A stretch of DNA of 64,000 nucleotides, taken from an uncultured Pelagibacteraceae bacterium (GTDB taxonomy: Bacteria > Pseudomonadota > Alphaproteobacteria > Pelagibacterales > Pelagibacteraceae). Position 1 is the stretch's first letter. Each line of letters opens with the position of its first letter. The notes under the pieces were generated by a model. The model was not told the DNA's origin, did not search any database, and saw only the letters and a list, made by a program, of their open reading frames with translations. The stretch lies in NCBI GenBank assembly GCA_902575835.1, contig CACGSX010000001.1:82065-146064 (forward strand), given 5' to 3'. Positions 1,135 to 47,726 of the stretch are shown one piece after another. Made by a program: the position numbers and the translations under genes.

Positions 1135-2088
1135 CTATTTTTGTATAGTGTTTAATTTGTTCAATTCAGACAAAAACTGAGGAAGCGCCTCAAAAAGATC
1201 TGCTTCTAATCCGTAATCTGCGACACTAAAAATTGGAGCTTCACCGTCTTTATTTATAGCTACAATAACTTTACTTTCTTTCATTCCCGCTAAGTGCTGT
1301 ATCGCACCTGAAATTCCAACTGCAATATATAAATCTGGAACCACAACTTTACCCGTTTGCCCTACTTGATGATCGTTAGTAATATAACCAGCATCAACTG
1401 CTGCTCTAGATGCTCCAATTGCTGCATTTAGTTTATCCGCAATATCACTTATTAATTTAAAATTTTCTCCATTTTGCATTCCTCTTCCACCAGAAATAAC
1501 TATTCTAGCTGTACCAAGTTCTGGTCTGTCTGACTTGACCTCCTCTTTCTTTAAAAATTTGGTAGATGAACTAGCTTCTGCTGGATCAGATTTTGTAATT
1601 TCAGCAGATCCACCACTCTTATCAGCAGGGTCAAATGATGTTGGTCTTATAGTAACACATTTTTTCTTGTCATTACTTTTAACCGTAGCAAAAGCATTTC
1701 CTGCATAAATTGGTCTTAAAAAAGTATCCTCAGAAATAACTTTAATTATATCGCTCACTTGCGAAGTATCTAGTAATGCTGCAATTCTTGGCATTAAATT
1801 TTTACCAAATGTATTTGCTGAGCTTACAATATGGGAATAATTTTCTGCATGCTTAATTATTGCTGATGTATAATTTTCAGCAATGTAGTTTTCATAAATC
1901 TCATTATTAATATGAATAACTTTTTTTACATTTGGAACTTCGGATAAAGATTTTGCAACATCGTCAGCTTGATGACCTAAAACCAAAACATGAAGATCTT
2001 CGTTTATTTGAGAAGCTGCAGTTATAGCATTATAAGTAAATGGTCTTACCTCTTTATTATTATGTTCTGCAATTAATAATACTGACAT
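1135..2088 (-). CDS. etfA: Electron transfer flavoprotein alpha subunit
   Basis: C-terminal FAD domain motif [37 protein letters not shown]...[29 protein letters not shown]. Confidence 0.96.
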
Positions 2089-2838
2089 TTAAATTACCTT
2101 AGCCTCATTTTTTAATTTTTGCACCAATTCTTCAACACTAGCGACTTTTATTCCAGCTTTTCTTTTTGGTGGCTCTTCAACTTTAATTTGTTCGATTCTA
2201 GGAATAATATCAACTCCTAAATCTGAAGCATTTATCTGTTCTATTGGTTTTTTCTTAGCTTTCATAATATTTGGAAGTGAAGCATATCTTGGTTCATTTA
2301 ATCTTAAATCACATGTAACAATTGCTGGAACATTGACTTCGATAGTTTCCAAACCTTCGTCAATTTCACGTGTTACCTCTAATGCATTATCCTTTACTTC
2401 GATTTTAGATGCAAAAGTTGCTTGTGGCCAATTTAGTAAAGCTGCAAGCATCTGGCCAGTTTGATTGCAGTCATCATCAATCGCTTGTTTTCCCATAAAT
2501 ACTAAATCAGGATTTTCTTTTTCTACAATTTTTTTTAAAATTTTTGAAACTGCCAATGGTTCAATCACATTATCAACTTTGACATGTATTCCCCTATCCG
2601 CTCCAACAGCTAATGCTTTTCTAACAGTTTCTTGTGCTTTCTCTTCACCGATTGTAATTGCAACTATTTCTTTAGCTTTGCCAGCTTCTTTAATTTTTAC
2701 TGCTTCTTCTATCGCATTATCATCAGGTGGATTTGTTGACATTTTAACGTTATCAGTAACAACACCTGAGCCATCTTCTTTAACTCGTATTTGAACGTTG
2801 TAATCAATAACTCTTTTAACTGCGACTAGTATTTTCAT
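2089..2838 (-). CDS. etfB: Electron transfer flavoprotein beta subunit
   Basis: [19 protein letters not shown]... [27 protein letters not shown]-beta signature; immediately adjacent to etfA. Confidence 0.96.
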
Positions 2839-5270
2839 TAAGCTCTTAATAAATTGTTTTCCGGATCGTAAGGACTTTCATCTAAAATTGTTGCATCATA
2901 TTTTTCACCTAATATTTCAATTTTAAGTTTTTGTCCAACATTTGCTAATTCTGGTTTAACCATTCCTAATGCTAAAGATTTTCCAATTCTAAAACCAAAA
3001 TCTCCACCTGTTGCTCTTCCTATTACACTTCCATTTTCATAAATTGGGTTGTTACCCAAAACATCTGCATCTTTTGGATTGTGAACCTCCAAGGTAACAA
3101 GTTTGTTATCAAAACCTTTTTCTCTCCATTTATTCAATGCTTCAAGTCCAATAAAACTTCCTTTATTAGGGTGTATAAATCTATTAAGACCGCTTTCATA
3201 AGGTGAGTATTCTATTGATAGCTCTGTTCCAACCAATTTATATGATTTTTCTACTCTCAAACTATTCATTGCTCTAATACCATATGGCTTTAGCCCAAGA
3301 TCTTGCCCTGCTTCCATAAGTTTATCAAAAATGTGATTTTGATATTCAATTGGGTGATGGAGTTCCCATCCTAATTCACCAACAAAATTAACTCTCATCG
3401 CATTAACCGGTGCGTATCCTACATCAACCATTTTTGCACTTAACCATTTAAAGTTTTCATTTGAAAAATCATCTTTTGAAACTCTTTGCATTAACTCTCT
3501 TGCTTTTGGACCTGAAACAACCAAAACCCCATTACTATTAGTTAAATTTTCAAACTGCACCGAGCCATCTGAAGGCATCCATTTTAAAATCCAGTCATGA
3601 TCTAATCTTTGGAAGGCACCTGCTGATACTAGATAAAAGCTATCATGTGACTCTCTCATAATAGTAAATTCAGAATGAACTCCACCTTTAGTATTTAAAG
3701 CGTGACATAAATTAATTCTTCCAACTTTTTTTGGTAATTTGTTTGCAACTAAATTATCTAAAAATTCCTCCGCACCAGGTCCTTTAATTCTACATTTTGC
3801 AAATGCAGTCATATCTAGAAGACCAACATTTTCTTTTACATTTTTGCATTCTTTTTCCATTGCATTGAACCATTTAGATCTTCTAAATGACCAGTCATCT
3901 TTTTGCTCCATTCCATCAGTTGCAAAAAAATTAGGTCTTTCCCATCCAAATTTTTGACCAAAGACTGCTCCTAAATTTTTCATTCTGTCATAACATGGTG
4001 CAGTTCTTAATGGTCTTGCCGCTGGCCTTTCTTCATCAGGAAAGTGAGTTATGAAAACGTGACTGTAGGCTTCTTCATTTTTAGCTTTTAAATATTGTTT
4101 TGAACAATAATCTCCATACCTTCTTGGTTCAACACCAAGCATATCAATTGTGGGTTCACCATCTACGATCCATTCAGCAAGTTGCCATCCTGCTCCACCT
4201 GCTGCAGTAATACCAAAACTATGACCTTCGTTTATCCAAAAATTTTTTAATCCCCAAGCTGGACCAACAATTGGGTTGCCATCTGGAGTATAACAAATTG
4301 CGCCATTATAAACTTTCTTTACACCCACTTCTCCAAAAGCAGGAACTCTATGTATTGCACCTTCAATATGAGGCGCTAATCTATCTAAATCTTCCTGAAA
4401 TAATTCATATTCAGAATCTTTTGAAGGTCCATCTACATAACAAGCTGGTGCTCCATCTTCATATGGTCCTAAAATTAATCCACCTGCTTCTTCTCTCATG
4501 TACCATCTGCTATCACTATCCCTTAAAACTCCCATCTCTGGTAGTCCATCTTTTTTTCTTTTTTGAATTTCTGGATGAGGTTCTGTAACAATGTATTGAT
4601 GTTCTACTGGAATTACTGGAATATCTAAACCAACCATCTTTCCAGTTTGTCTTGCAAAATTTCCTGAACAAGAAATAATATGTTCACACTCTATAGATCC
4701 TTTATCTGTTTCAACAACCCAACCATCTTTGGTTTGTTTCATTCCAACAACATTTGTATTTCTATAAATTTCTGCTCCTCTATTTCTTGCACCTGTAGCA
4801 AGAGCTTGTGTTAAATCAGCTGGTTGGATATATCCATCTTCGGGGTGTTGTATTGCACCAACTAAATCTGATGTATTACATAATGGCCAGATTTCCTTAA
4901 CTTGATCTGGAGTTAAAAATTTTACATCAACACCAATTGTTTGAGCAACCCCAGCGTATTGAAAGTATTCATCCATTCTATCTTTAGTGCTTGCTAATCT
5001 AATATTAGATACAACGCTGAAACCTACATTCTTGCCTGTCTCTTCTTCTAAAGTTTTATACAAATTGACAGCATACTTATGAAGTTGTCCCACAGAATAA
5101 CTCATATTAAATAGTGGTAATAAGCCAGCTGCATGCCAAGTTGAGCCAGAAGTTAGTTCTTTTCTTTCAATTAAAACAACATCTGACCAACCTTTTTTTG
5201 CTAAGTGATAGAGTGCACTAACTCCCACTACTCCACCACCAACTACAACAACTTTTGCTTTGGATTTCAT
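2838..5270 (-). CDS. Dimethylglycine/sarcosine dehydrogenase-like FAD oxidoreductase with C-terminal GcvT/aminomethyltransferase domain
   Basis: N-terminal [40 protein letters not shown] (covalent-FAD DMGDH/SARDH type), C-terminal GCV_T folds; 810 aa; adjacent to etfBA/ETF-QO. Confidence 0.88.
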
Positions 5271-6932: not shown

Positions 6933-7298
6933 TTATTTTTTTTCTTCCTTTTTACTTGCAATATCTGCTTTTAATTCGTGTGGCTCTAAAGGATCAAGGA
7001 AAGGATTGCGATATAATTTATCATGACTTTCAACTCCTATCTCAATTGTGCAATCTGTTTTTGCTTTAGCAACACATAAAATAATATATCCATCATTTAT
7101 TTGTCTATTATTTAGAGCAACTTGAGAACGCTGATCCACTTCTCCATTAATTAGTTTAGCTGCACATGTTATACATCCTCCATACTGACATCCGTAAGGA
7201 AGATCGACACCTTGATCTCTTAATTCATTTAATAAAGGTTTTTTTCCACTAACTTCAAATGCACTGTTATTTCTGTTTGAGATTGTAATCTTTGTCAT
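6933..7298 (-). CDS. Plant-type 2Fe-2S ferredoxin
   Basis: CQYGGCITC ... C spacing (Cx4Cx2C...C); start MTKITISNRN overlaps upstream stop by ATGA. Confidence 0.88.
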   Translation of the reverse strand: MTKITISNRNNSAFEVSGKKPLLNELRDQGVDLPYGCQYGGCITCAAKLINGEVDQRSQVALNNRQINDGYIILCVAKAKTDCTIEIGVESHDKLYRNPFLDPLEPHELKADIASKKEEKK

Positions 7299-8647
7299 AG
7301 CCAGATGTCGCTTGTGCAATCTCCACCTGGATATCTACTTTCATGGCACCTACTAGGTCCATTTGGCTCTTTACCAAAATCAACAATAAAATCTTTATTA
7401 ATTTTCATCCCACCATTTTCAACATCACAGTCAATCATAATCATAGCTCCACCCTGTTTTCTTATTTCAGGATAAAATTGATTATCCCAAGTAGAAAATA
7501 ATGATGTTGTTACATACATCCTTTTACCATCTAAAGATAATTGATACATCTGAGGTCCACCAGCAATTTTAACACCATTTACTTCTGGAGCCTTTCCTAG
7601 TAATCCACCCATCCAAACCTGACCAGTTAATTTTGGTTTGTGTGGATCTGAAATATCATATTGCCTCATATCACCATGAAGCCAGTTATTTATATAGAGA
7701 TACTTATCATCCATTGAAACTAATATCGCTGACATAACTCCAGGTACAGGTATTGGCCAATCAGGATGTGGTTCATTTTCAACATCAATTATTTTTTTCC
7801 ATTCCCATTTTCCCTCTTTTGATTTCCAAAAATGAATTACATTTGCACTTAATGCTGCACCACAAAATCCATGACTACTATCAGGATTATGCATAAATTT
7901 TACTTCTAATGGTATTAAACCATCTTCACCTAAATACATTGTTTGAACTGGTTCTTTTTTTTTAAAATCCCAAACATGAAGTCGTCTACCATATTTTAGA
8001 TGACCAACTTCCTCTAAATCAAATCCAGGCATGAATGTATTAGGAGCAGCCCATTCAGAACTAACCATCACATTATGTCTTGGCTGGTACCAGAAGTCAT
8101 AACTAAAAGGTATGTCCCCCATTGAATTTTCCCATCTACCCACAATTTCAAAATCTTTATTTAAATGTAAATATCCTCCTGGAGCTTCTCCTCGAGCATC
8201 TCCAAGAAAAGAAATGATAATTTCAGAACCTAAGCAATGAACTGTATGTGGTCCAGATAAATTAGTTTTTTTCTTTATTTCAGATCCATCTACTACTTTA
8301 TGTATTTTTGGAGCTCTAGGATCAGATGCAGTATCAACAACATAAATATTATTGGATCTAACACCTGGAACTAATAAATATTTTCTGCTCATATTTGAGT
8401 CACCGTGGCAAGAAGAACATGCATTCCATCCCATGTGATGCAGTTCATCACCAATACCTGGCATTTCAAGTCTATGAATTACTTTAGAATATGTGGGGCT
8501 TTGAGGATCAACATCGACTGTTGCTAAATAGTCTGGTTTTTGTATTCCCGTCCCTGTGTAAATAGCTATTGTGTATAAAAGCTTTTCTTTTGGTGCTTTT
8601 ATTGCTTCTGCAGGACTAGCATATCCAGGACCACAACATCCATCCAT
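7295..8647 (-). CDS. SELENBP1-type selenium-binding protein / methanethiol oxidase homologue
   Basis: MDGCCGPGYASPAEAIKAP..., DYLATVDVDPQSPTYSKVIHRLEMPGIGDELHHMGWNACSSC closely matching SELENBP1/MTO family motifs; 450 aa. Confidence 0.9.
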   Translation of the reverse strand: MDGCCGPGYASPAEAIKAPKEKLLYTIAIYTGTGIQKPDYLATVDVDPQSPTYSKVIHRLEMPGIGDELHHMGWNACSSCHGDSNMSRKYLLVPGVRSNNIYVVDTASDPRAPKIHKVVDGSEIKKKTNLSGPHTVHCLGSEIIISFLGDARGEAPGGYLHLNKDFEIVGRWENSMGDIPFSYDFWYQPRHNVMVSSEWAAPNTFMPGFDLEEVGHLKYGRRLHVWDFKKKEPVQTMYLGEDGLIPLEVKFMHNPDSSHGFCGAALSANVIHFWKSKEGKWEWKKIIDVENEPHPDWPIPVPGVMSAILVSMDDKYLYINNWLHGDMRQYDISDPHKPKLTGQVWMGGLLGKAPEVNGVKIAGGPQMYQLSLDGKRMYVTTSLFSTWDNQFYPEIRKQGGAMIMIDCDVENGGMKINKDFIVDFGKEPNGPSRCHESRYPGGDCTSDIWL

Positions 8648-10278: not shown

Positions 10279-11454
10279 TTAAATTAAATTACCAGCAACC
10301 CACTTATGAAAATGATGTGTTGGATTGTCCATCTTTGGAGAAAAATTACCACCATTATAAGCTGGAGAGTTTCTACCTATTTGCATACTTTGAATTATAT
10401 CTACATCTTCTTTTTGAATATCTTCCCATTGTTTGTGATTTTTTTGTCTTAGGGATTTATATTTTGTTGAATTTGCTGCTTCATCTCCTACATAATAAAT
10501 TTCCATATGTTCTATTGTAAACTCATGATTGATTGGCTCTAACCAATAAGCATAATAATGATCTTTGTGAATTCCTAACATTACATTTGGGAATAGCGCT
10601 ACATACTCAGCTATATTTTCCATATCTTTAGGCCAATTAGGAAAGCATGGAAACTTTTCATTTCCTTCAAACCTTGGATTATAAACCACTGTTCCTTGTC
10701 CGGCGAAACGATTTGGAAGACCTTGAATATGATAGTGATCTTCTAACTTTGAATAAGAATTTAATCCTGGATGAACCCAAGGCAAATGATAGCTTTCACA
10801 ATAATTTTCAATTGCAAATTTCCAATTACATTTTGCATCTAATTTAAAATAACCATAGTCGTTTGCATGATAAATTAAATCTCTATCTTTCAATGGCCAA
10901 AATTTTTCCCATCTTTCACTTAAAGGACTAATGTAATCCTCAAATGAAATTTCATTGTTGTTAATATTAATCATAATTAGATCTAACCAAATATATGATC
11001 TTATCTCTTTTAAATTACTTTTTGATTTATCAAATTCAGGTGTTTGATGAATATTCATGCCTCCTATATGAGGTGTAGCAACTAATTTACCTTCTAAATC
11101 ATAAGACCACGAATGATATGAGCATCTCATAACATTCCTAATTTTGCCAGCCTGTTTGACTAATTTTACTCCTCTATGACTACAAATATTATGGAAAACT
11201 TTAATTTCTTTATTCTTTGTTCTAACAATAAGTAAGGGTATTCCAAGTAAATCAATTGGTTTCACATCACCTTCATCTGGAATTGAACTTCCAACTCCAA
11301 TTACGATCCACTTATCTTCAAATAATTTTTTTCTTTCAATTAAAGTATATTCTTTACTGATGTAACATTCATTTGGTAAACCATGAGCTTCACTAATTGG
11401 TTTAGATACAATATCTAACTTTTGTTTATCTATAATATTGTAAATTTCTGACAT
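10279..11454 (-). CDS. Rieske 2Fe-2S aromatic-ring-hydroxylating-type oxygenase alpha subunit (betaine/choline monooxygenase-like)
   Basis: Rieske CSHRG...CSYHSWSYDLEG, mononuclear Fe motif NWKFAIENYCESYHLPWVH. Confidence 0.88.
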   Translation of the reverse strand: MSEIYNIIDKQKLDIVSKPISEAHGLPNECYISKEYTLIERKKLFEDKWIVIGVGSSIPDEGDVKPIDLLGIPLLIVRTKNKEIKVFHNICSHRGVKLVKQAGKIRNVMRCSYHSWSYDLEGKLVATPHIGGMNIHQTPEFDKSKSNLKEIRSYIWLDLIMININNNEISFEDYISPLSERWEKFWPLKDRDLIYHANDYGYFKLDAKCNWKFAIENYCESYHLPWVHPGLNSYSKLEDHYHIQGLPNRFAGQGTVVYNPRFEGNEKFPCFPNWPKDMENIAEYVALFPNVMLGIHKDHYYAYWLEPINHEFTIEHMEIYYVGDEAANSTKYKSLRQKNHKQWEDIQKEDVDIIQSMQIGRNSPAYNGGNFSPKMDNPTHHFHKWVAGNLI

Positions 11455-14379: not shown

Positions 14380-15108
14380 ATGAATTTTTCTTTAGAAATA
14401 GGTCCTAAAACTGATTTAAGCACGTTGCCAAAGGTAAAAGATGTTTATGTTACAATGCTACCTGGGGGTGATTATAAAGAGACAGCTCAACAGTCTGGAG
14501 AGTTAGTTAAAGAGGGATTTAATCCAGTTCCTCACTTCCCTGCAAGGTCAATAAATGATGAAAATCAGCTGAAAGATTATGTTTCTAGATGTAAAGATTT
14601 GGGTGTTAAGCAGGTCTTGGTGATAGGTGGAAGTCGTGACCCGATCGGAAAATTTGATAGCTCATATCAAATGCTAGAGACAGGGTTTTTTGATGGTATT
14701 AAGATTGGAATTGCTGGACATCCCGAGGGGAGTCCTGATATATCCGACTCTGATTTAGAAAAAGCTATGATAGATAAAAAGCCTTATGCTGATTATATAG
14801 TTACACAATGGCTAATGGATACTCAGCCTATTATAGATTTTATCTCAAAACAAACAATACCAGTTCATGTTGGAATAACTGGGCCAATGAAAATATCTAG
14901 CTTAATTAAATTTGCTAATATTGTAGGGGCAAAAAATTCCATTAACTTTCTTAAATCTAATTTTAGTAAGGCGTTAGATTTATTGAAACCTAAAGACCCT
15001 AATGATTTAATTGGGAAAGTTAAATCACATACTGATTATTTCCACATTTATACATTCGGCGGCTTGAAGGAAACTAACAAGTGGTTGAAGGAGAATAACT
15101 ATGTCTAA
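14380..15108 (+). CDS. Short methylenetetrahydrofolate reductase-like protein
   Basis: MetF-like TIM barrel: LSLEIGP/VYVTMLPGGDYKET, VPHFPARS, VLVIGGSRDP, IGIAGHPEGSPD, IVTQWLMD...; 242 aa. Confidence 0.82.
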   Translation: MNFSLEIGPKTDLSTLPKVKDVYVTMLPGGDYKETAQQSGELVKEGFNPVPHFPARSINDENQLKDYVSRCKDLGVKQVLVIGGSRDPIGKFDSSYQMLETGFFDGIKIGIAGHPEGSPDISDSDLEKAMIDKKPYADYIVTQWLMDTQPIIDFISKQTIPVHVGITGPMKISSLIKFANIVGAKNSINFLKSNFSKALDLLKPKDPNDLIGKVKSHTDYFHIYTFGGLKETNKWLKENNYV

Positions 15109-16456
15109 TGAATTTGACTATAGTAAACTAAGACATACAACATCAGTAGATCAGTCTGATAGAAAAGTACCATACAATTTAAGACAAAGCGGACCTACTA
15201 AAGTTGAAATGCTAATATCAACAAGAGTAAGGAAGTCTCCATACTGGCATTTATCAATGAAAGCAGGATGTTGGAGAGCAACTGTATATAACAGAATTTA
15301 TCATCCAAGAGGTTATGTTAAACCTGAAGATGGTGGTGCAATGGTGGAATACGAAGCAATTAAAAACCATGTAACAATGTGGAATGTTGCAGTTGAAAGA
15401 CAAATACAAGTTAAAGGACCAGATGCAGAAAAATTTGTTGATTATGTAATTACAAGAGATGCTACAAAAATTTCTCCAATGAGAGGAAGATATGTAATTT
15501 TGTGTAATGCATATGGAGGAGTATTAAATGATCCTATTCTTTTAAGAATATCTAAAGATGAATTTTGGTTTAGTTTATCAGATAGTGATATTGGATTATA
15601 TTTGCAAGGAGTAAATGCAGATGAAAGGTTTAATGTTCAAATTAATGAAATAGATGCTTGTCCTGTACAAATTCAAGGTCCTAAAGCAAAAGCTTTAATG
15701 AAAGATCTTTGTGGAAGTGAAGTTGACATAGACAACATGCCTTTTTATGGATTGGCGTCTGCAAAAGTTGGTGGAAGAAGTTGTATTATTTCTCAAACAG
15801 GTTTTTCAGGCGAGTCTGGATTTGAAATATATTTAAGAGAAGCAACTTTATATGCCGAAGATATGTGGAATGCTGTTCTTGAAGCAGGTAAAAAACATAA
15901 CTTAATGGTGATTGCTCCTGCACACCATAGAAGAATTCAGGCTGGAATTCTTTCATGGGGACAAGATATGGATCATGAGCATAATCCTTTTCAATGTAAT
16001 CTTGGATATCAAGTTTCTTTATCTGGAAAAGGTGAATGGAATAAAAAAGGTGATTATGTTGGTAAAAAAGCCCTCGAGAAAATGAAAGCTGATTTAAAAG
16101 CAGGTCATAAACCTTACAAGCTTCAATTAGTTGGACTTGAATTAGGTGGAAAACCTATTGAAGAATACGCTCCAGATTTTTGGTTAATTTCAGAAAATGG
16201 CAGTGAGCCTGTAGGATTTGTAACTTCTCCTTGGTATCACCCAGAAAAAGGGAAAAATATTGCTATGGGATATGTACCTTTTGATGGCACGCTGAATGCA
16301 AATGGTTTTCCAAGAGGTAAAGTTGGATCGAAATTTAAAGTCCACCTACCAGAAAAATATTCTGATAAACCTGGGGAACCAGTTGATGCAGTTGTAGTTG
16401 ATATTCCATTTACAGAATCTTACAACGCAAATACAAGAGAAGTAGTCAGCAAGTGA
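15101..16456 (+). CDS. DmdA/GcvT-family THF-dependent demethylase, substrate unknown
   Basis: 451 aa; VERQIQVKGPDAEKFVDYVITRDATKISPMRGRYVILCNAYGGVLNDPILLRISKDEFWFSLSDSD resembles DmdA; 8-nt overlap with upstream MTHFR. Confidence 0.82.
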   Translation: MSNEFDYSKLRHTTSVDQSDRKVPYNLRQSGPTKVEMLISTRVRKSPYWHLSMKAGCWRATVYNRIYHPRGYVKPEDGGAMVEYEAIKNHVTMWNVAVERQIQVKGPDAEKFVDYVITRDATKISPMRGRYVILCNAYGGVLNDPILLRISKDEFWFSLSDSDIGLYLQGVNADERFNVQINEIDACPVQIQGPKAKALMKDLCGSEVDIDNMPFYGLASAKVGGRSCIISQTGFSGESGFEIYLREATLYAEDMWNAVLEAGKKHNLMVIAPAHHRRIQAGILSWGQDMDHEHNPFQCNLGYQVSLSGKGEWNKKGDYVGKKALEKMKADLKAGHKPYKLQLVGLELGGKPIEEYAPDFWLISENGSEPVGFVTSPWYHPEKGKNIAMGYVPFDGTLNANGFPRGKVGSKFKVHLPEKYSDKPGEPVDAVVVDIPFTESYNANTREVVSK

Positions 16457-25394: not shown

Positions 25395-25973
25395 TTATTC
25401 AGCTTTATAGCCAAATTCTAAACAAGCATCAGTTATTGAATGATAAAGAGATTCACCAAAACTTCTTAAAGCGAATATTCTTACTTTTCTTGGATTTGAA
25501 CTAATAAAATCAATAGTTATTGTAATTGCATGAAAAGCAGAATTAGAACATTTCCCTTCATCAAGGCCATCTAAATTTAATGGACAACCTTTTTTCAATA
25601 CTTCATCTACCAAAGAACCTTCTAATTCAAGTATTGTTCTTGAATGAGACAGATCAGTTAATGCAAAATCATCATGACTTAGGTTTTCTAGAATAGATTT
25701 TTCTATTTCTTTATTCTTTGAAACAACTAACCAATTATCAGGTCCCATCCATAAAATTCTTGTATTAGGATTTGAAGATACCAAAAGAGTCTGGGGTAAA
25801 TTTAAATTATCTATTTTTATTTTATCAATACTAATTGAAGATTTTTTATATTTAACAATCTGATAAATCAAAATATCTTTGATTTCTCTAATATTTATTA
25901 GCTCATCTTTTCTATCGTGATTGCCAAACAATCCATGTTTATGAATATTTTCTAGTGCAGAAACATTTTTCAT
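25395..25973 (-). CDS. Sarcosine oxidase gamma subunit / N-methylglutamate dehydrogenase subunit D-like
   Basis: LWMGPDNWLVVS, ALTDLSHSRTILELEGSLVDEVLKKGCPLNLD; downstream of soxA. Confidence 0.85.
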   Translation of the reverse strand: MKNVSALENIHKHGLFGNHDRKDELINIREIKDILIYQIVKYKKSSISIDKIKIDNLNLPQTLLVSSNPNTRILWMGPDNWLVVSKNKEIEKSILENLSHDDFALTDLSHSRTILELEGSLVDEVLKKGCPLNLDGLDEGKCSNSAFHAITITIDFISSNPRKVRIFALRSFGESLYHSITDACLEFGYKAE

Positions 25974-28966
25974 GATCTAACTCTTTTTCCTTCAGGATCA
26001 ACATAATGAGAAGAAATAACCTCTACTTCAATTGATTTATTTTTTAATGGTGATACCGCAAAAAACTTTTTACCTATCATATTTTTTCCATCTTTCATAA
26101 TTGCTAGCGAAAATGGATTATTATTTTCTACACTCCAACAAGAAGAAGAAACATGGCCAAGTTTAGGGTTTGGTAATTTTGCATTCTGATCTTGGACGAT
26201 ATGAGATCCTTCAGGAATACTAGACTTTCTATCAATTGGAATAAGTCCAACAATTTTTTGTCTGCTCTCAACATTAAATGCTTCTCTTCCTAAAGAATTT
26301 TTGCCAATAAAATCTTTTTTCTTTGAAACTAATCCATTTAATGAAACATCTGATGGGATTGTTCGGCCATCTAATTCTGGTCCTGCAACGTGTCCCATTT
26401 CAATTCTTAATGTTGATAAAGCTTCAGTTCCATAAGGCTGATTTCCAAATTCTTTTCCTAATTCCATCATTTTCTCCCACATGAACATGCCATGATCTGA
26501 TTTGACATTAATCTCATATGCAAGCTCACCAGAAAATGAAATTCTAAAAATTCTTGATGGAACACCAAAAAAGTCTGCTTCTTTATAGCCCATAAAAGGC
26601 AATGCATCATTTGAAACATCTAAGTCTGGATATAATTTTGATAACATGTCTCTAGATTTGGGTCCTGCAATTGCAGCCCCTGCCCATTGCTCAGTTGTAG
26701 AGACAACATTTACATTTAATTCTGGCCAAACAATTTGAAGATAATATTCTAGGTGAGACAAAACATTTGCAGCTTGTGCAGTTGTTGTTGTCATATGATA
26801 ATGATTTTCTGAAATTCTTGTTGTTGTTCCATCGTCCATGACAATTCCATCTTCTCTAAGCATTAATCCATATCTTGCTTTTCCAATAGGTAATTTCATC
26901 CAAGCATTTGTATAAACTCTGTTTAAAAATTCTGCTGCGTCTGGACCTTTAATATCAATTTTTCCTAATGTTGTTACATCGCATATACCAACATTCTCTC
27001 TAACATTTTTTGCCTCTCTCTTTGAAGCTTCAAATAAAGTTTCATTTCCTTGTTTATAATATCGGGGTCTTTTCCAAGCACCTGCATCAACGAAAACAGC
27101 ATTATTTTTCTCATGCCATTCATGCATTGGAGTTTTTCTAGTCGGCATATATTCCATACCTACTTCACGACCTACTATTGTCCCGATTGTAATTGGTGTG
27201 AAAGGTGGTCTAAATGTTGTGTGTCCTACTTCAGGAACTATTTTATTTTCTATATTAGATACCAACTGAAGACCATTTAAATTACTTGTTCGTCCTTGAT
27301 CTGTTGCCATTCCAAGAGTTGTATATCTTTTGACATGCTCTATTGACCTATAACCTTCCCTTAGTGCAATTTCTATATCAGAAACAGATACATCATTTTG
27401 AAAATCAACAAATCTTTTTGGATTTTCATTTTTAGGTAATGGCATACACCAAAATTTATCATGAGCACCATATTTTTTTTCATTTACATTTGGAATTGCA
27501 ATTTCTGTTTTAGTATCTGTAATTTTAGCAGAAAGATTTGAACCATTTTCAAAACCATTTTTTAAACTTTCTTCTAAAGTAAAAGATCCATTTGCTGCAC
27601 CGACTGATGTCTCGTGTTGTTTTTTCTTATTTGGAATAAATGCATCAATTTTTTCTTCATATTTAAGTTTATTTCCTGATTGTGATGCTAAATGTACAGA
27701 TGGTGTCCAAAATCCAGACACGCAAATGCAATCACAATCTACAGTTTCTATTTTCTCAAAAGAATTTTTATCTTTATTCAGTTTGCCAATTTTTGCAGAT
27801 TTAACTTTTTTGTATCCATTAGCAACAATGACACCGTGAGAAAATCTTATGTCAATTCCCTTTGATTTAGCTTCATCGATTAATTCTGATGAATGTTCTT
27901 CTCTTGTATCTAATATAATTGGTTCAACATTATTTTTTTTGAACTCTAAAGCTGTTTCATATGCACTATCGTTATTTGTAAATATTAAAGGTTTTTTTCC
28001 TACTAAAACTCCGTAGACTTTCATATATTCTTTTGCAGCTGCTGATAAAAAAATTCCCGGAGTATCATTGTTTCCAAATACAATTGGTCTTTCAATTGAA
28101 CCAGTTGATAAAATCGTTTCTTTGGCTCTAATATACCAAAGTCTTTGTCTTGGAGTGAATTTTGATTTTTTCTCTAAATGATCACTAACTCTCTCAAACA
28201 TAACCAGCATATTATGATCATAGTAACCAAAAACTTGAGATCTATTTTTTACAGTTACATTAGGCATAGATTTTAATTCACTAATTATTTTTTCTGCCCA
28301 ATCTTTTCCTGATAAATTATCGATGCTTACATCGTCCGTTAAAAGTGTTCCTCCAAATCGTGGTTTGTCCTCAGCTAAAATTACTTTTGCTCCATTTTTT
28401 GCAGCAGCATAAGCGCTTGCTAATCCAGATGGCCCAGATCCAGTAACTAACAAATCACAATACTCAAATTTATGTTCGTATCTTTCTTTATCTTTTTCTA
28501 TTGAAGCAACCCCTAAACCTGCAGCTTTTCTTATGAAAGGTTCGTAAATTTTATACCAGAAACTTTTAGGCCACATAAATGTTTTGTAATAAAACCCAGC
28601 AGGGAAAAACATTTTTAAAAAATTATTAATTGCACCAATATCAAAATTAACTGATGGCCAACAATTCTGGCTAGTAGCTGATAAACCTTCAACGAGTTCC
28701 ATTTCTGTTGCATTAACATTGGGCTCTGAATGACCATTGAATTCTACCTGTAGTTTTGCATTTGGCTCCTCTACTCCTGCACCAAAAAAACCTCTCGGTC
28801 TATGATATTTAAAACTTCTACCGACTAAGTGTATTCCATTTGCTATTAAAGCAGATGCAATTGTATCACCTTCATATCCAAATAATTTTTTACCATTAAA
28901 AATAAAAGATATTTTTTTATTTCGATTAATCAATCCCTCTTTATTTAATCTAAATGGTTGGCTCAT
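25970..28966 (-). CDS. Sarcosine oxidase alpha subunit / N-methylglutamate dehydrogenase subunit C-like
   Basis: 998 aa; FxGYEGDTIASALIANGIHLVGRSFKYHRPRG, GSGPSGLASAYAAAKNGAKVILAED, C-terminal GcvT. Confidence 0.93.
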   Translation of the reverse strand: MSQPFRLNKEGLINRNKKISFIFNGKKLFGYEGDTIASALIANGIHLVGRSFKYHRPRGFFGAGVEEPNAKLQVEFNGHSEPNVNATEMELVEGLSATSQNCWPSVNFDIGAINNFLKMFFPAGFYYKTFMWPKSFWYKIYEPFIRKAAGLGVASIEKDKERYEHKFEYCDLLVTGSGPSGLASAYAAAKNGAKVILAEDKPRFGGTLLTDDVSIDNLSGKDWAEKIISELKSMPNVTVKNRSQVFGYYDHNMLVMFERVSDHLEKKSKFTPRQRLWYIRAKETILSTGSIERPIVFGNNDTPGIFLSAAAKEYMKVYGVLVGKKPLIFTNNDSAYETALEFKKNNVEPIILDTREEHSSELIDEAKSKGIDIRFSHGVIVANGYKKVKSAKIGKLNKDKNSFEKIETVDCDCICVSGFWTPSVHLASQSGNKLKYEEKIDAFIPNKKKQHETSVGAANGSFTLEESLKNGFENGSNLSAKITDTKTEIAIPNVNEKKYGAHDKFWCMPLPKNENPKRFVDFQNDVSVSDIEIALREGYRSIEHVKRYTTLGMATDQGRTSNLNGLQLVSNIENKIVPEVGHTTFRPPFTPITIGTIVGREVGMEYMPTRKTPMHEWHEKNNAVFVDAGAWKRPRYYKQGNETLFEASKREAKNVRENVGICDVTTLGKIDIKGPDAAEFLNRVYTNAWMKLPIGKARYGLMLREDGIVMDDGTTTRISENHYHMTTTTAQAANVLSHLEYYLQIVWPELNVNVVSTTEQWAGAAIAGPKSRDMLSKLYPDLDVSNDALPFMGYKEADFFGVPSRIFRISFSGELAYEINVKSDHGMFMWEKMMELGKEFGNQPYGTEALSTLRIEMGHVAGPELDGRTIPSDVSLNGLVSKKKDFIGKNSLGREAFNVESRQKIVGLIPIDRKSSIPEGSHIVQDQNAKLPNPKLGHVSSSCWSVENNNPFSLAIMKDGKNMIGKKFFAVSPLKNKSIEVEVISSHYVDPEGKRVRS

Positions 28967-29232
28967 CTTATTTCTTCTGTGACTTTTGCTGTTTGGAAAA
29001 TTTCATGTGTAGCGGTGTCTCTTTGCACCTTAATCCATTGTCTACATCCAGCTATATGTTGCCATAACTCTATATGTTTCCCTCTTGGACTTTTTCTCAT
29101 ATAAACAAAATTATCCCAATCTTCACTTGATACTTCTTCATTTATATTAGGTCTTTTTACAGTTGCATCACCTCCATATGAAAATTCTTTTTGTGCTCTT
29201 AAACCGCAATAAGGACATTTGATGTATAACAT
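28963..29232 (-). CDS. Sarcosine oxidase delta subunit / MgdB-like
   Basis: CPYCGLRAQKEFSYGGDA...RKSPRGKHIELWQHIAGCRQWIKVQRDTATHEI. Confidence 0.92.
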   Translation of the reverse strand: MLYIKCPYCGLRAQKEFSYGGDATVKRPNINEEVSSEDWDNFVYMRKSPRGKHIELWQHIAGCRQWIKVQRDTATHEIFQTAKVTEEIR

Positions 29233-29235
29233 TTT

Positions 29236-30492
29236 TTAACCAATCCAGGTTTTAGTTCCTAAACCTTTTTCATCTAAAAGATGGCCTGTAGAAAATCTAT
29301 TTAATCTTAATTCTGAATTTAATTCATGAACTTGATCTTGTGCAATTGTATGAGCAAATGTCCAACCTGAGACAGGAGTTGATTTAAAACCTCCATAACA
29401 CCATCCGCAGTTTAAATATAAACCTTCAATATGAGTTTTATCAATTATTGGAGAACCATCCATAGACATATCCATGATCCCTCCCCACGTCCTTAACATT
29501 TTTAATCTACTTAAAAATGGAAACAAAGCTAAGCCGCCTGTCAATACATGTTGTATAGTCGGCAAGTTACCTCTTTGAGCATAACTATTATATCCATCAA
29601 GATCACCACCCATTACCATCTCACCTTTATCTGATTGACTTATATAAAAGTGGCCTGCACCAAAAGTTACCACTCCGTCTAACAACGGTTTTACAGGTTC
29701 TGAAACACAAGCTTGCAGTACATGAGTTTCTATTGGCAGTGTCATATTTAATTTTTCAGCTAATATATTTGTGCTACCTGCAACACATAATCCAACTTTT
29801 TTTGCTTTAATATCTCCTCTTGAAGTTCTAATTCCTTTTATCTTTCCATTAACAACATCAAAACCAGTGACCTCACAATGTTGTATTATATCTACTCCCA
29901 TATCATCTGCTTGACGTGCATAACCCCAAGCAACAGCGTCATGTCTTGCAGTACCAGCGCTTGATTGCATTAAGCCTCCAAAAATTGGGAAGCGTACTTC
30001 ATCACTAAAGTCAGCCATTGGAATTAATTTTTTAACTTCGTCTCTATCCAATAACTTTGCATCTATTCCATTTAATCTCATAGAGTTTCCTCTACGAGCA
30101 TATGCATTCATTTGAGCATCTGAGTGGGCTAAGTTTATTATTCCCCTTGGAGAAAACATCACATTAAAGTTCAGTTCTTGACTTAAGTTTCTCCATAAAT
30201 CCATTCCAAATTCATTAAATCTTGCATTAGCATCGTACATAAAATTTGATCTTATGATTGTTGTATTTCGACCAACATTTCCACCACCAATCCAGCCTTT
30301 CTCAATGATAGCTACATTTCTAATGTTATGTTCTTTTGCTAAATAATATGCAGTAGCAAGACCGTGTCCTCCACCTCCAATGATGACTACATCATATTCA
30401 CTTTTTGGAGTTGGATCTTTCCAAGCAACTTCCCAATTTTGGTGATTGGAGAAAGCGTTTTTGATTAGACTAAATACTGAATATTTATGCAT
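29236..30492 (-). CDS. Sarcosine oxidase beta subunit / MgdA-like
   Basis: DVVIIGGGGHGLATAYYLAKEHNIRNVAIIEKGWIGGGNVGRNTTIIRSNF...WCYGGFKSTPVSGW. Confidence 0.94.
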   Translation of the reverse strand: MHKYSVFSLIKNAFSNHQNWEVAWKDPTPKSEYDVVIIGGGGHGLATAYYLAKEHNIRNVAIIEKGWIGGGNVGRNTTIIRSNFMYDANARFNEFGMDLWRNLSQELNFNVMFSPRGIINLAHSDAQMNAYARRGNSMRLNGIDAKLLDRDEVKKLIPMADFSDEVRFPIFGGLMQSSAGTARHDAVAWGYARQADDMGVDIIQHCEVTGFDVVNGKIKGIRTSRGDIKAKKVGLCVAGSTNILAEKLNMTLPIETHVLQACVSEPVKPLLDGVVTFGAGHFYISQSDKGEMVMGGDLDGYNSYAQRGNLPTIQHVLTGGLALFPFLSRLKMLRTWGGIMDMSMDGSPIIDKTHIEGLYLNCGWCYGGFKSTPVSGWTFAHTIAQDQVHELNSELRLNRFSTGHLLDEKGLGTKTWIG

Positions 30493-43459: not shown

Positions 43460-45613
43460 TTAAGCAATTCCTAGATGTTTTTTTCTTTTTTCAACCCAAG
43501 TTCTTATCAAATTATCAAAGATTAAACCTATAAAAGCTACACAAATACCCAAAGTTAAACCAATACCAGCACCATTTTTATCTGATAAAGCTTTTAAAAT
43601 ATATTGTCCCAAATCTTCTGTGCCAATAAATGCCCCTATAATTACCATAAATAATGCAAACACTATTGTTTGATTTATACCAAGCATCATATGAGGGAAT
43701 GCTAAAGGAAATTCTATTTTTGTTAATCTTTGAAATTTATTTACACCTGACATTGTAGCTGCATCATGTAAACCGGCCGGAACACTTCTAAGGCCTTCAA
43801 TTGTGTATCTAGTTGCTGGTATGGTTGCATAAACAATTACTGCAATAAGAACAGAAGTGTCAGTTATACCAAAAAGCATCATCACAGGAATAAGATAAAC
43901 AAATGATGGGAATGTTTGGAAAATATCACAGACACCTAACATAAATTTTGCAGAATGTTTATTCTGAAAACACAATGTGCCAACTGTAAAACCAATAATA
44001 CAAGAAACTATTACCCCAAAAGTTGCCATGTAAGCTGTTACCAAAGCTCTATCCCACCAGGGACTTAAGGCTATGAATAATGTCAAACCACAAACTACTA
44101 ATGCAGATCTAATTCCACCAATTAAGTAGCCAGCACCAACTACTAAAACTAATGTGGCAACAGCTGGCATCCTTAAATACAAAGCCCTCATTGGTTGTAA
44201 AACTTCTTGAATTAACCAAGTGTTAAAAGCTTTTATATAAACAAAGAAGGTATCAAAAATCCAATCAACGCCTTTATTCCAAAAATCAGCAGTTGATATT
44301 CCTTTGTTGTGAGGCACTTCAAATAAATAATTGTAACCACCTTTAAAATAAACAGATCCAAAGTAAGCAAGTAAAATTCCAATTATGAATGTGACACTAA
44401 AAAATAATAAATTTTTATTTCTTTGAAAAAAATTTAAGTTGCCAAAATAATCAACTTGTTTGTTTGCCCACGCTAATGACATTTTATCTAATAAAATTGC
44501 AATTAAACTAATACAAAGACCTGCTTCTAACGCTAATCCGATATTAAGCTGATTTAGTGCTAACAATAAATTAAAACCTAGACCTTTCGCTCCAATGAAG
44601 GCTGAAATAACAGCCATAGAAAAGCACACCATGATAACCTGGTTTACGCCAATTAAAATATCTCGTCTGGCCGTTGGAATTAGCACTTTAGACATTAGTT
44701 GCCAATTATTACAACCACTCATTCTTCCAGCTTCAATCACTTCTGGAGGAATAGCTCTTAATCCTAATAAAGTAAGCAATATCATAGGTGGAACAGCAAC
44801 AACCATAGTTATAATTACTGCAGCATGGTCACCGACTCCAAAAAGAACAAGTGCAGGAACTAATACTGCATATTGTGGCATTGTTTGCATAACTAAAAGA
44901 ATTGGATATAAAGCTTTTTCTACACGTTTACTTTTATAAGCTGCAATACCTAAACTTAAACCAAATATAAAAGATAGAGGCGCAGCAACTAAAATAAAAG
45001 AGAGTGTTTGCATTGATGGTTTCCATTGTCCAAATATAGAAATGTAAACCATAGTTAGACCAGCAAATAAAGCAAGTCCAATGCCACTTAATTTATAAGC
45101 AAGTATTGCAAAACCAGCTGCAACTATAGTCCAAGGTAGACCCGGTAACTCCGCCCAAGGGTTCGCATCGATCCAGTCCCAACTTGTAAAGGCAACAATT
45201 GTTTCAAGTCCACCTAATAGAATTTCTCTAATTAATTCTATTAAAAAGGTCATAAAAGCCGTTAAATTTCTGCTAATTTGTAAAACTATTGGTCTAGTTT
45301 TAAACTCTTGAGTGTCCTCATTCCAAAACTCCATTGGCATCCACTCATTCATTAAGAAAAACAAAGAGTCATTTATCCATATTGGTAACCATCCAAGTAA
45401 TGGCGGAAGCCTCCAGAAAACATCAAAAGCATAATATCTTACTTCTTTACCTAAAAATATGTAACTACTTTGATTAGGGTCTTTGACGAATTCAGCTTGG
45501 CCTCTAATGAATTTATATGTTTCTGGAACATCAATAGCAAAACAAAGAGCAAAGAAAACAATTAATAGAAATAACCACTGAAATATTTTTGGATATTTTT
45601 TTAGAAATTTCAT
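43460..45613 (-). CDS. Duplicated-domain ProW-type quaternary amine/TMAO ABC permease (717 aa)
   Basis: Two EAA-type loops (EAGRMSGCNNWQLMSKVLIP and DAATMSGVNKFQRLTKIEFP) and two TM bundles; TMAO-locus context. Confidence 0.88.
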   Translation of the reverse strand: MKFLKKYPKIFQWLFLLIVFFALCFAIDVPETYKFIRGQAEFVKDPNQSSYIFLGKEVRYYAFDVFWRLPPLLGWLPIWINDSLFFLMNEWMPMEFWNEDTQEFKTRPIVLQISRNLTAFMTFLIELIREILLGGLETIVAFTSWDWIDANPWAELPGLPWTIVAAGFAILAYKLSGIGLALFAGLTMVYISIFGQWKPSMQTLSFILVAAPLSFIFGLSLGIAAYKSKRVEKALYPILLVMQTMPQYAVLVPALVLFGVGDHAAVIITMVVAVPPMILLTLLGLRAIPPEVIEAGRMSGCNNWQLMSKVLIPTARRDILIGVNQVIMVCFSMAVISAFIGAKGLGFNLLLALNQLNIGLALEAGLCISLIAILLDKMSLAWANKQVDYFGNLNFFQRNKNLLFFSVTFIIGILLAYFGSVYFKGGYNYLFEVPHNKGISTADFWNKGVDWIFDTFFVYIKAFNTWLIQEVLQPMRALYLRMPAVATLVLVVGAGYLIGGIRSALVVCGLTLFIALSPWWDRALVTAYMATFGVIVSCIIGFTVGTLCFQNKHSAKFMLGVCDIFQTFPSFVYLIPVMMLFGITDTSVLIAVIVYATIPATRYTIEGLRSVPAGLHDAATMSGVNKFQRLTKIEFPLAFPHMMLGINQTIVFALFMVIIGAFIGTEDLGQYILKALSDKNGAGIGLTLGICVAFIGLIFDNLIRTWVEKRKKHLGIA

Positions 45614-45616
45614 AAT

Positions 45617-46648
45617 TTATTTCCCATTCTTTCTTCCGCCAAAGACAGTATTTATTATTTTTGTCGGGTTAATTGACCCCACAGTTTTGTTATTTTCATC
45701 TATAACTGCTACAGATTTTTCTTGCGTTAATATTTTTTCAGCAACATTCTCTATAATTTCATTTTTTAAAACTTTAACATCTCCTAAATTATTAGATATA
45801 GATTTGTCCATTACATCTTTAATTAATAAAACTTTTTCTCTAGGAACTTCTTCTGTGAATTTTCTTACATATTCCGTAGCTGGGTTTAAAACTATATTTG
45901 CAGGTGTATCCAGTTGTTCAATTATTCCGTCTTTCATAATTGCAATTCGATCAGCAAGTTTTAATGCTTCATCAAAATCATGAGTAATAAACATAATTGT
46001 TTTTTGTAATTTTTCTTGAAGTCTTAAGAATTCATCTTGCATTTCTTTTCTAATTAAAGGGTCTAAAGCAGAAAAAGGTTCATCTAAAAACCATATATCA
46101 GGTTCAACTGCAAGAGATCTGGCAATTCCAACTCTCTGTTGTTGTCCGCCTGAAAGTTCTCTTGGAAAATAATTTTCTCTCCCATCAAGTCCAACTAATT
46201 TAACCATCTCCATTGCTTTATTAATGCTTTCCTCAGTTTTGATACCTTTGATTTGAAGAGGAAATGCTATATTTTCTACAACAGTTTTGTGTGGAAGAAG
46301 AGCAAAGCTTTGGAAAACCATCCCCATTTTATTTCTTCTAAGCTCTATTAATTCTTTATTATTTAAATTTAATAAATCTTGACCCTCAATGAAAATTTTT
46401 CCACCCGTTGCATCTGTTAATCTGGATATACACCTTAGTAAAGTTGACTTACCCGATCCAGATAAACCCATCACAACAAGCATTTCTCCTTTTTCTACCT
46501 CAAAGGAAGCGTTGTTAACACCAACTATACAACCATTTTCTTGAAATGTTTTAGCATCAACATTGCCATTCGAGTCTTGAAGCATTTTTTTAGCATTTTC
46601 ACCAAAAATTTTATAAACTCCATCGCACTTAATCACTGCTCTAGACAT
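45617..46648 (-). CDS. ProV-type quaternary amine/TMAO ABC ATPase
   Basis: GLSGSGKSTLLRCISRLTDATGG, LSGGQQQRVGIARSLAVEPDIWFLDEPFSALDPLIR; C-terminal CBS-like region. Confidence 0.93.
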   Translation of the reverse strand: MSRAVIKCDGVYKIFGENAKKMLQDSNGNVDAKTFQENGCIVGVNNASFEVEKGEMLVVMGLSGSGKSTLLRCISRLTDATGGKIFIEGQDLLNLNNKELIELRRNKMGMVFQSFALLPHKTVVENIAFPLQIKGIKTEESINKAMEMVKLVGLDGRENYFPRELSGGQQQRVGIARSLAVEPDIWFLDEPFSALDPLIRKEMQDEFLRLQEKLQKTIMFITHDFDEALKLADRIAIMKDGIIEQLDTPANIVLNPATEYVRKFTEEVPREKVLLIKDVMDKSISNNLGDVKVLKNEIIENVAEKILTQEKSVAVIDENNKTVGSINPTKIINTVFGGRKNGK

Positions 46649-46712
46649 AATTATTAAGAAGGTATACGAAAATTAATTAAATTAAAATCAATATAATTGA
46701 TGCTATTTTTCA

Positions 46713-47264
46713 TCAGAAATTTTTAATAAAATAAACCCTTGTATCTATTCCAGTGCTTAAAAAACTTAATGCTTCACCGCTTATTGTAATTGTTTCATCC
46801 ACTCCTACGTTATTTCCACTAACAGTAAAACCTGCATAACATTTTTTTTTTTCAGCATCCCATTTTACATATGTATCATCAATCTTGTTTCCATTAATTG
46901 TGTAAAGCTCATGAGCTCTAAAATTGAGAAAATTAGCACCCATTATAGCTCTTTGAGGAATAAGTTTTGTAGCATTACATACACCTTCATAAAGTTCATC
47001 AGATAATTTGTAATGCTCAGTACCATCAAAAGTGACCAGTATACCTGATGGGAGTTTTGAAATTAATGCGCTTAGCTTTCTTTCGTTCGCAATTCTTTCT
47101 TCTTCTAATTTCATTTTCCTGACTAATTCATCTCCCTCTCCAAATATTTTATTTAAAATTGCAAAAGATAAAATGATAACTAATGTTAAAAATATAAGTC
47201 CAATAAATTGTTTTGCTGTTTCTGGTAGTTTTTTAATTGTTTTAATTGAATTATCCCTAGACAT
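46713..47264 (-). CDS. Single-pass membrane protein, unknown function
   Basis: TM segment FIGLIFLTLVIILSFAIL; 183 aa; one-base overlap with MORN gene. Confidence 0.65.
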   Translation of the reverse strand: MSRDNSIKTIKKLPETAKQFIGLIFLTLVIILSFAILNKIFGEGDELVRKMKLEEERIANERKLSALISKLPSGILVTFDGTEHYKLSDELYEGVCNATKLIPQRAIMGANFLNFRAHELYTINGNKIDDTYVKWDAEKKKCYAGFTVSGNNVGVDETITISGEALSFLSTGIDTRVYFIKNF

Positions 47265-47641
47265 TAATCTTGTAATTTACCATTTTGCCAAATTCCTTTT
47301 TTTTGCTCTCCATTTGCCCAAGTAAATGTTCCTTCGCCATTCATAAATCCATTTAACCACTCACCCTCATATGTAGAGCCATCCGGAAAAGTTAAAGTTC
47401 CCATTCCACTCCAAACGCTGTTTTTAAATTCACCTTTATATATATATCCATTAGGCCATGTTTCTACACCTTGGCCATTTTTTTTTGTATCAACCCATTC
47501 ACCTTCATAAGTTGTTTTATCTGTATAAACCCATTTGCCATAACCATTTTCGCAATTACCTTCTTTGCATCCTGTGCTTCTTGCGTTTGCATTTGTAATT
47601 AAAAATAAACTAAAAAATATTAAAACAAGGTATTTTATCAT
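47264..47641 (-). CDS. MORN-repeat secreted/periplasmic protein
   Basis: Repeats TYEGEWVDTKKNGQGVETWPNGYIYKGEFKNSVWSGMGTLTFPDGSTYEGEWLNGFMNGEGTFTW; signal peptide. Confidence 0.88.
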   Translation of the reverse strand: MIKYLVLIFFSLFLITNANARSTGCKEGNCENGYGKWVYTDKTTYEGEWVDTKKNGQGVETWPNGYIYKGEFKNSVWSGMGTLTFPDGSTYEGEWLNGFMNGEGTFTWANGEQKKGIWQNGKLQD

Positions 47642-47666
47642 TAATGTATTCTACACAATTTCTTTT

Positions 47667-47700
47667 AAAAAAAAATCCCCCCCAACAGAGTTGGGGGAGA
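47667..47700 (-). terminator. Rho-independent terminator downstream of the binding-protein gene
   Basis: Minus strand TCTCCCCCAACTCTGTTGGGGGGGATTTTTTTTT: strong stem plus T-tract. Confidence 0.9.
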
Positions 47701-47726
47701 TTTATATAAGTTGTTAATTATTAGCC

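Follow-up and report, generated by a model that had tools for sequence, protein, structure and literature searches.

A DmdA-related GcvT-family protein paired with a short MTHFR in SAR11 bacteria is a candidate THF-dependent glycine betaine demethylase

Introduction

Which methylated compound supplies the DmdA-like demethylase that SAR11 bacteria encode beside a short MTHFR? Few marine nitrogen osmolytes are as abundant as glycine betaine, and SAR11 bacteria are among its main consumers. In HTCC1062, Sun et al. noted a pair of this kind in 2011, SAR11_1264-1265; they regarded SAR11_1265 as an aminomethyltransferase whose function was not known, and their guess was that it performs a second DMSP demethylation (PMC3160333). 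By matching description (metF beside a DmdA-related aminomethyltransferase conserved in SAR11), the pair analyzed here would be orthologous to it. A 2025 study in PNAS, which makes no mention of GcvT or DmdA, proposes that betaine demethylation in SAR11 proceeds only through Bhmt and that of many other marine bacteria via cobalamin-dependent MtgBCD (PMC12478193). A full-text search limited to open-access literature turned up no description of a glycine betaine demethylase that depends on THF. Here, we propose that the larger protein of the pair is probably such an enzyme, a substrate assignment that comes from genomic context and co-occurrence.

A conserved gene pair

The pair lies in the window, by which we mean the whole 64,000-nucleotide stretch of DNA analyzed, part of a 1.15-Mb genome bin that is 82% complete. 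We read this bin as SAR11 because it encodes a DmdA close to the Pelagibacter enzyme and has relatives with the same small-genome profile. On the forward strand, an MTHFR-like gene (14380..15108; 242 aa; Pfam PF02219), proposed to convert 5-CH3-THF to 5,10-CH2-THF, overlaps by 8 nt (15101..15108) a DmdA-like demethylase gene (15101..16456; 451 aa; GCV_T/GCV_T_C), proposed to encode a glycine betaine:THF methyltransferase. These open reading frames match exactly those given in a preliminary description of the locus. The overlap is kept in same-genus relatives and likely reflects translational coupling. Against Pfam, the 451-aa protein scores 141 bits for GCV_T and 29 bits for GCV_T_C; the MTHFR match of its partner is weak, at 24.9 bits, and lies over the cut-off of 24.

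The two genes are side by side in 30 of the 30 SAR11-order loci checked, which come from two families, and because of this adjacency, the pairing is not due to chance. Both proteins are 80 to 100% identical among same-genus SAR11 loci. In the other SAR11-order family, identity is 84 to 88% for the demethylase, an unusually high conservation between families, whereas it is ~54% for the MTHFR. The 451-aa protein is longer than DmdA (369 aa), as had been pointed out previously, and the extra length is mostly a conserved N-terminal stretch of ~40 aa (TSVDQSDRKVP-NLRQSGPT...) and a C-terminal tail. An apparent fusion protein in two other loci (L072 and L074) was rejected as a long open frame running through GC-rich upstream DNA. 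No Rfam match indicated a riboswitch upstream of the pair in the window.

Relationship of the demethylase to DmdA, LigM, and GcvT

Family membership was called with curated NCBI models and their cut-offs, with DmdA represented by the equivalog NF009133 (410 bits). The 451-aa protein scores 237.1 bits against this model, below the cut-off, while two other proteins of the same genome, used as positive controls, reach 572.2 and 530.2 bits; a separate bona fide DmdA, closely matching the Pelagibacter enzyme, is encoded in this genome. The protein also falls below the cut-offs for GcvT (NF001567, 159 bits against 300; TIGR00528, 139 bits against 235.85), LigM (NF047885, 35.4 bits against 580), and DesA (NF047633, 42.1 bits against 800). 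In a maximum-likelihood tree, it forms one clade with its orthologs (100/100 support) within a wider DmdA-like group, in which the DmdA of the genome clusters with other paralogs and outside which LigM is placed.

The folate-site residues D144, Y131, E242, and Y244 (DmdA D108, Y95, E204, and Y206) are invariant in 26 family members. A Trp residue tied to the DMSP specificity of DmdA, numbered W171 in a published alignment (PMC7487153) and equated here with protein W197 by its equal spacing to the neighboring Glu and Tyr, is F235 in the window protein and Phe in 25 of the 26 members. Similarly, Thr18 of DmdA corresponds to Trp49, with Trp in 22 of the 26. DmdA is the best PDB sequence match, and an AlphaFold2 model of moderate confidence (mean pLDDT 75) has DmdA (3tfh) as its top fold match, followed by T-proteins and DMGDH. 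With both Pfam domains, the folate-site Asp/Tyr/Glu, and a GcvT fold, the protein belongs to the GcvT superfamily; despite its relatedness to DmdA, it is, as judged from models, tree, and residues, not DmdA.

The preliminary description had read the locus as encoding an MTHFR and, coupled to it, a THF-dependent demethylase related to DmdA, reasoning that a protein inside the DmdA clade with conserved DMSP-binding residues would simply be a DMSP demethylase. The comparisons with DmdA, LigM, and GcvT bear this reading out, as evidenced by a clade of its own and by Phe in place of the DMSP-linked Trp.

The genome bin holds 11 proteins with GcvT domains, which for 1.15 Mb is an unusual commitment to THF-linked C1 chemistry, and a GcvT candidate of 368 aa lies elsewhere in the genome. 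A 387-aa paralog (L176:193-1356; own genome C1, ~171592-172755) scores 530 bits on the DmdA model yet carries Tyr in place of the DMSP-linked Trp; among SAR11 proteins, this model may assign DmdA too readily. Approximately 4 kb from this paralog lies a long-branching GcvT-family protein of 407 aa (L177:461-1684; own genome C1, ~166460-167683).

The MTHFR partner

The nearest solved relative of the 242-aa protein is S6MTHFR (7xg9), matched at E=3e-32 by the window protein alone and at E=9e-78 by a profile of 15 pair-associated MTHFRs, for which every other match is 5e-17 or weaker. Glu6 is invariant among the demethylase-associated MTHFRs. The protein is nearer to S6MTHFR than to canonical MetF and was assigned to that subtype; it is also the single PF02219 match in the genome bin. 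S6MTHFR is reported to oxidize LigM-produced CH3-THF in Sphingobium (PMC12585457), and by analogy, the 242-aa MTHFR would run in the oxidative direction. SAR11 bacteria are reported to lack MetE, MetH, and Mtg (PMC12478193), and because of this, CH3-THF would have little use in them other than oxidation.

Other genes of the window

On the reverse strand, a family scan identified a DMGDH/SarDH-type oxidoreductase with FAD and GcvT domains (2838..5270; 810 aa), proposed to catalyze a downstream step, and, adjoining it, electron-transfer flavoprotein-type alpha and beta subunits (1135..2838). The same strand carries soxB and soxA of the heterotetrameric sarcosine oxidase type (25970..30492), both over cut-off (TIGR01372, 1309.6 bits; TIGR01373, 667 bits), for whose predicted complex a later demethylation and N-methylglutamate dehydrogenase are candidate roles. 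Orthologs of the FAD oxidoreductase lie near the demethylase in three loci of related genomes (L041, L068, and L084), in one of them (L068) ~0.7 kb downstream; in the window, the closest betaine-type gene is ~9 kb from the pair. A clean human-type BHMT was sought in the 82% complete bin, and none of its three PF02574 proteins passes the BHMT model.

As the preliminary description noted, the pair diverges from ergothioneine-type genes, which encode EgtD-like (Methyltransf_33) and EgtB-like (DinB plus FGE) proteins. Its suggestion that hercynine or an ergothioneine-derived compound might be the substrate did not hold up. Apart from the window itself, just four relatives, all near-identical, have egtB beside the pair; different genes occupy its position in other SAR11 loci, and more distant carriers have no ergothioneine genes there. 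Because the adjacency is confined to near-identical relatives, we regard it as incidental and reject the link.

A 391-aa Rieske oxygenase (10279-11454, reverse strand) is distantly GbcA-like (118 bits against a cut-off of 670), and its ortholog is the immediate divergent neighbor of the pair in ten other loci (L017-L019, L021, L023, L026, L039, L040, L086, and L087). Since it flanks the pair in many other SAR11 loci, a functional link between the oxygenase and the metF-demethylase pair is possible. The window further contains Tdm (trimethylamine N-oxide demethylase; 48821-51160, forward strand; 1106 bits against a curated cut-off of 1100) together with genes for an OpuAC-type binding protein and a betaine-type ABC transporter (43460-48680). 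A selenium-binding protein/methanethiol oxidase-like gene (7295-8647, reverse strand; 164 bits against the MtoX cut-off of 650) adjoins an enoyl-CoA hydratase gene.

Carriers and their gene neighborhoods

Orthologs with approximately 50 to 88% identity to the window demethylase occur across SAR11, HIMB59-like clades, other bacteria, and haloarchaea. A scan of named genomes identified them in Rhodospira, HIMB59-like single cells, Marinobacter, Halomonas, Onishia, Arthrobacter, Brevibacterium, and Nocardioides and in bins of Gemmatimonadetes, Acidobacteria, and Nitrospinae. Orthologs with 51 to 59% identity are carried on plasmids of Haloarcula, Haladaptatus, Salinigranum, and Halomicrococcus. 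One 4-kb IMG/VR contig (L196) holds a partial ortholog (86% identical) at its edge; phage carriage was not accepted on this single viral-collection contig, which is probably host DNA and possibly a phage-carried copy.

Independent neighborhoods converge on glycine betaine breakdown. HIMB59-like loci contain soxB-soxD-soxA-soxG, an FAD-GcvT enzyme, metF, and the demethylase in a single run. In Marinobacter loci, the demethylase is accompanied by metF and fhs as well as by an FAD-GcvT enzyme and the betaine regulator GbdR; the GbdR match exceeds the curated cut-off (480 bits) in all four Marinobacter loci tested and is weaker, at 327 to 391 bits, in seven other loci. On the haloarchaeal plasmids, the demethylase is accompanied by MTHFR, folD, fhs, folP/pabAB, a threonine/serine deaminase, a BCCT transporter, and ~850-aa FAD oxidoreductases grouping with enzymes of the DMGDH/SarDH type. 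Over 84 loci, the neighbors include DMGDH/SoxA-type genes in 64, MTHFR in 47 (within 9 kb), fhs in 22, and GbdR-like genes in 18, and when loci are collapsed at 85% identity into 28 groups, the counts are 20, 17, 8, and 5, respectively; 11 of the 84 lack any expected neighbor. Neither choline- or carnitine-specific genes nor aromatic-degradation genes were seen to recur near the demethylase in the loci examined. Four of the haloarchaeal plasmids (L168-L171) carry a block in which folate synthesis genes stand beside those for C1 oxidation and for betaine-type catabolism, which looks like a transferable betaine-catabolism island.

Co-occurrence with other betaine enzymes

Among 385 alphaproteobacterial genomes sampled, 19, from 13 families, carry the demethylase. 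PF16350, the central domain of DMGDH/SarDH, is present in all 19 carriers, compared with 120 of the 366 noncarriers (p=2e-9), and the two SAR11-family genomes in the sample that lack the demethylase (G158 and G435) lack PF16350 as well. When the comparison is confined to PF16350-positive genomes, an MtgB-type (PF06253) or GbcA-type demethylase is found in 2/19 carriers versus 85/120 noncarriers (p=7e-7). This exclusion is also seen after collapsing to taxonomic families (2/13 versus 41/56; p=2e-4) and when one genome is drawn per family (median p 5e-4). In two families (f30 and f66), sister genomes swap the two types: the carrier has none of the known demethylases, and one is present in its relative that lacks the gene.

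The exclusion signal is mostly MtgB; for GbcA alone, it is not significant in the 385-genome sample (p=0.31). None of 17 named carriers has an MtgB-type protein, while true GbcA accompanies the demethylase in three Halomonas-type genomes and one Marinobacter genome, and some actinobacterial carriers have GbcA-like proteins below the cut-off. One carrier (G361) has MtgB-type, GbcA-like, and BHMT proteins. In Halomonas, the exclusion breaks down, and overall, it is incomplete.

Proposed function and alternatives

We propose that the 451-aa protein would transfer a methyl group from glycine betaine to THF, yielding dimethylglycine and 5-CH3-THF. Such a direct transfer would be redox neutral, as is the DMSP reaction of DmdA, and independent of both B12 and O2. 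The co-translated MTHFR would oxidize 5-CH3-THF to 5,10-CH2-THF, whose carbon would then pass via FolD, Fhs, and formate dehydrogenase to formate and CO2. Dimethylglycine would be converted to sarcosine and then glycine by DMGDH/SarDH-type flavoenzymes or SoxBDAG. The N-methyl osmolyte substrate of the preliminary description thus stands in general terms, and what it called an unidentified compound can be narrowed, from context, to glycine betaine as a specific candidate. Several points count against the proposal: methyl transfer to the N5 of THF is chemically harder from a quaternary amine than from a sulfonium, the pair is distant from betaine genes in the window, some carriers also have GbcA, and some loci are bare of expected neighbors.

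Given that the substrate is set by context rather than sequence and that the characterized relative DmdA uses DMSP, the enzyme might instead act on a different methylated onium compound (choline, carnitine, a betaine of the proline or pyridinium type, or a sulfonium analog, dimethylsulfonioacetate for example), whose products the betaine neighbors would process. In SAR11, the gene and DMGDH do not share an operon, and a second glycine betaine demethylase would be redundant in carriers of GbcA. We consider this unlikely, since the neighbors that recur in unrelated phyla are GbdR, DMGDH/SarDH, and Sox, with nothing specific to choline or carnitine seen to recur, and since the enzymes with which the demethylase shows mutual exclusion act on glycine betaine. 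A later step, in which C1 units of dimethylglycine or sarcosine pass to THF, would suit the DMGDH/SarDH genes of all alphaproteobacterial carriers sampled, but it is quite improbable: these flavoenzymes already have a GcvT domain of their own to handle THF, a tertiary amine donates its methyl group poorly unless it is oxidized, and the exclusion pattern concerns first-step enzymes.

Readings taken from better-known relatives fare no better. The published suggestion that SAR11_1265 converts methylmercaptopropionate to mercaptopropionate drew on DmdA similarity, metF adjacency, and similar abundance (PMC3160333). It has little probability in view of the betaine genes that neighbor orthologs in haloarchaea, Actinobacteria, and Marinobacter and of the Phe that nearly all members have at the DMSP-linked position (PMC7487153); moreover, as a thioether, methylmercaptopropionate should be a poor donor for redox-neutral methyl transfer. 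A DmdA variant acting on DMSP would accord with the best sequence and fold matches, yet the subthreshold DmdA score beside two far higher ones from the same genome, the separate clade, and the Trp-to-Phe replacement make it very improbable. LigM/DesA-type O-demethylation of methoxy-aromatics shares the layout of metF with a GcvT-family gene, and S6MTHFR, the closest solved relative of the MTHFR, is coupled to LigM; this identity was rejected on model scores and the position of LigM in the tree, and with no aromatic-degradation genes seen recurring nearby, its probability is close to negligible.

Relation to known systems

The glycine betaine demethylase proposed here would share with DmdA (Pelagibacter 3tfh-3tfj) the GcvT fold, the THF acceptor, the folate-site Asp/Tyr/Glu, an ERQ motif, and an expected redox-neutral transfer; it differs in its length and conserved N-terminal extension, in Phe for Trp197 and Trp49 for Thr18, in its separate clade, and in a betaine rather than DMSP context. 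Its arrangement resembles LigM with S6MTHFR of Sphingobium lignivorans SYK-6, where a GcvT-family demethylase is served by an MTHFR of the same subtype that is reported to oxidize CH3-THF. However, the demethylases are unrelated at the subfamily level, the substrate of LigM is aromatic, and the MTHFR here is ~45 aa shorter. With cobalamin-dependent MtgBCD, it would have in common the net reaction, methyl to THF, and the downstream steps; unlike it, MtgBCD needs a corrinoid protein, its MTTB component (PF06253) is not of the GcvT family, and the two are largely mutually exclusive in Alphaproteobacteria. Its product, dimethylglycine, would be the same as that of GbcAB, which is likewise associated with GbdR but is an unrelated, O2-dependent Rieske enzyme that releases formaldehyde.

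BHMT, including SAR11 BhmT, also removes the first methyl of glycine betaine but has homocysteine as its acceptor. HTCC1062 oxidizes glycine betaine methyls (PMC3160333), and its BhmT, which SAM riboswitches repress, is induced when sulfur is limiting (PMC5069961). This regulation fits methionine supply better than catabolism. Because BhmT, so repressed and induced, also consumes one homocysteine per turnover, we infer that it is unlikely to be the sole catabolic enzyme in SAR11.

Significance

What would be new is a substrate class within the known GcvT superfamily. The broadest form of the proposal is that a direct glycine betaine:THF methyltransferase constitutes an unrecognized DmdA-like GcvT class, provides a B12- and O2-free route in SAR11, several phyla, and haloarchaea, and outweighs BhmT in SAR11 betaine catabolism; we regard its chances as evenly balanced. 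If it is true, betaine would have a further route beyond BhmT and MtgBCD that needs neither B12 nor oxygen, and the burning of betaine methyls by SAR11 would be explained without a drain on homocysteine. It would also provide a marker gene for metagenomes, and many "aminomethyltransferase" annotations in halophiles and haloarchaea would denote a betaine catabolic enzyme. For SAR11 itself, the core gene SAR11_1265, noted in 2011, would gain a function.
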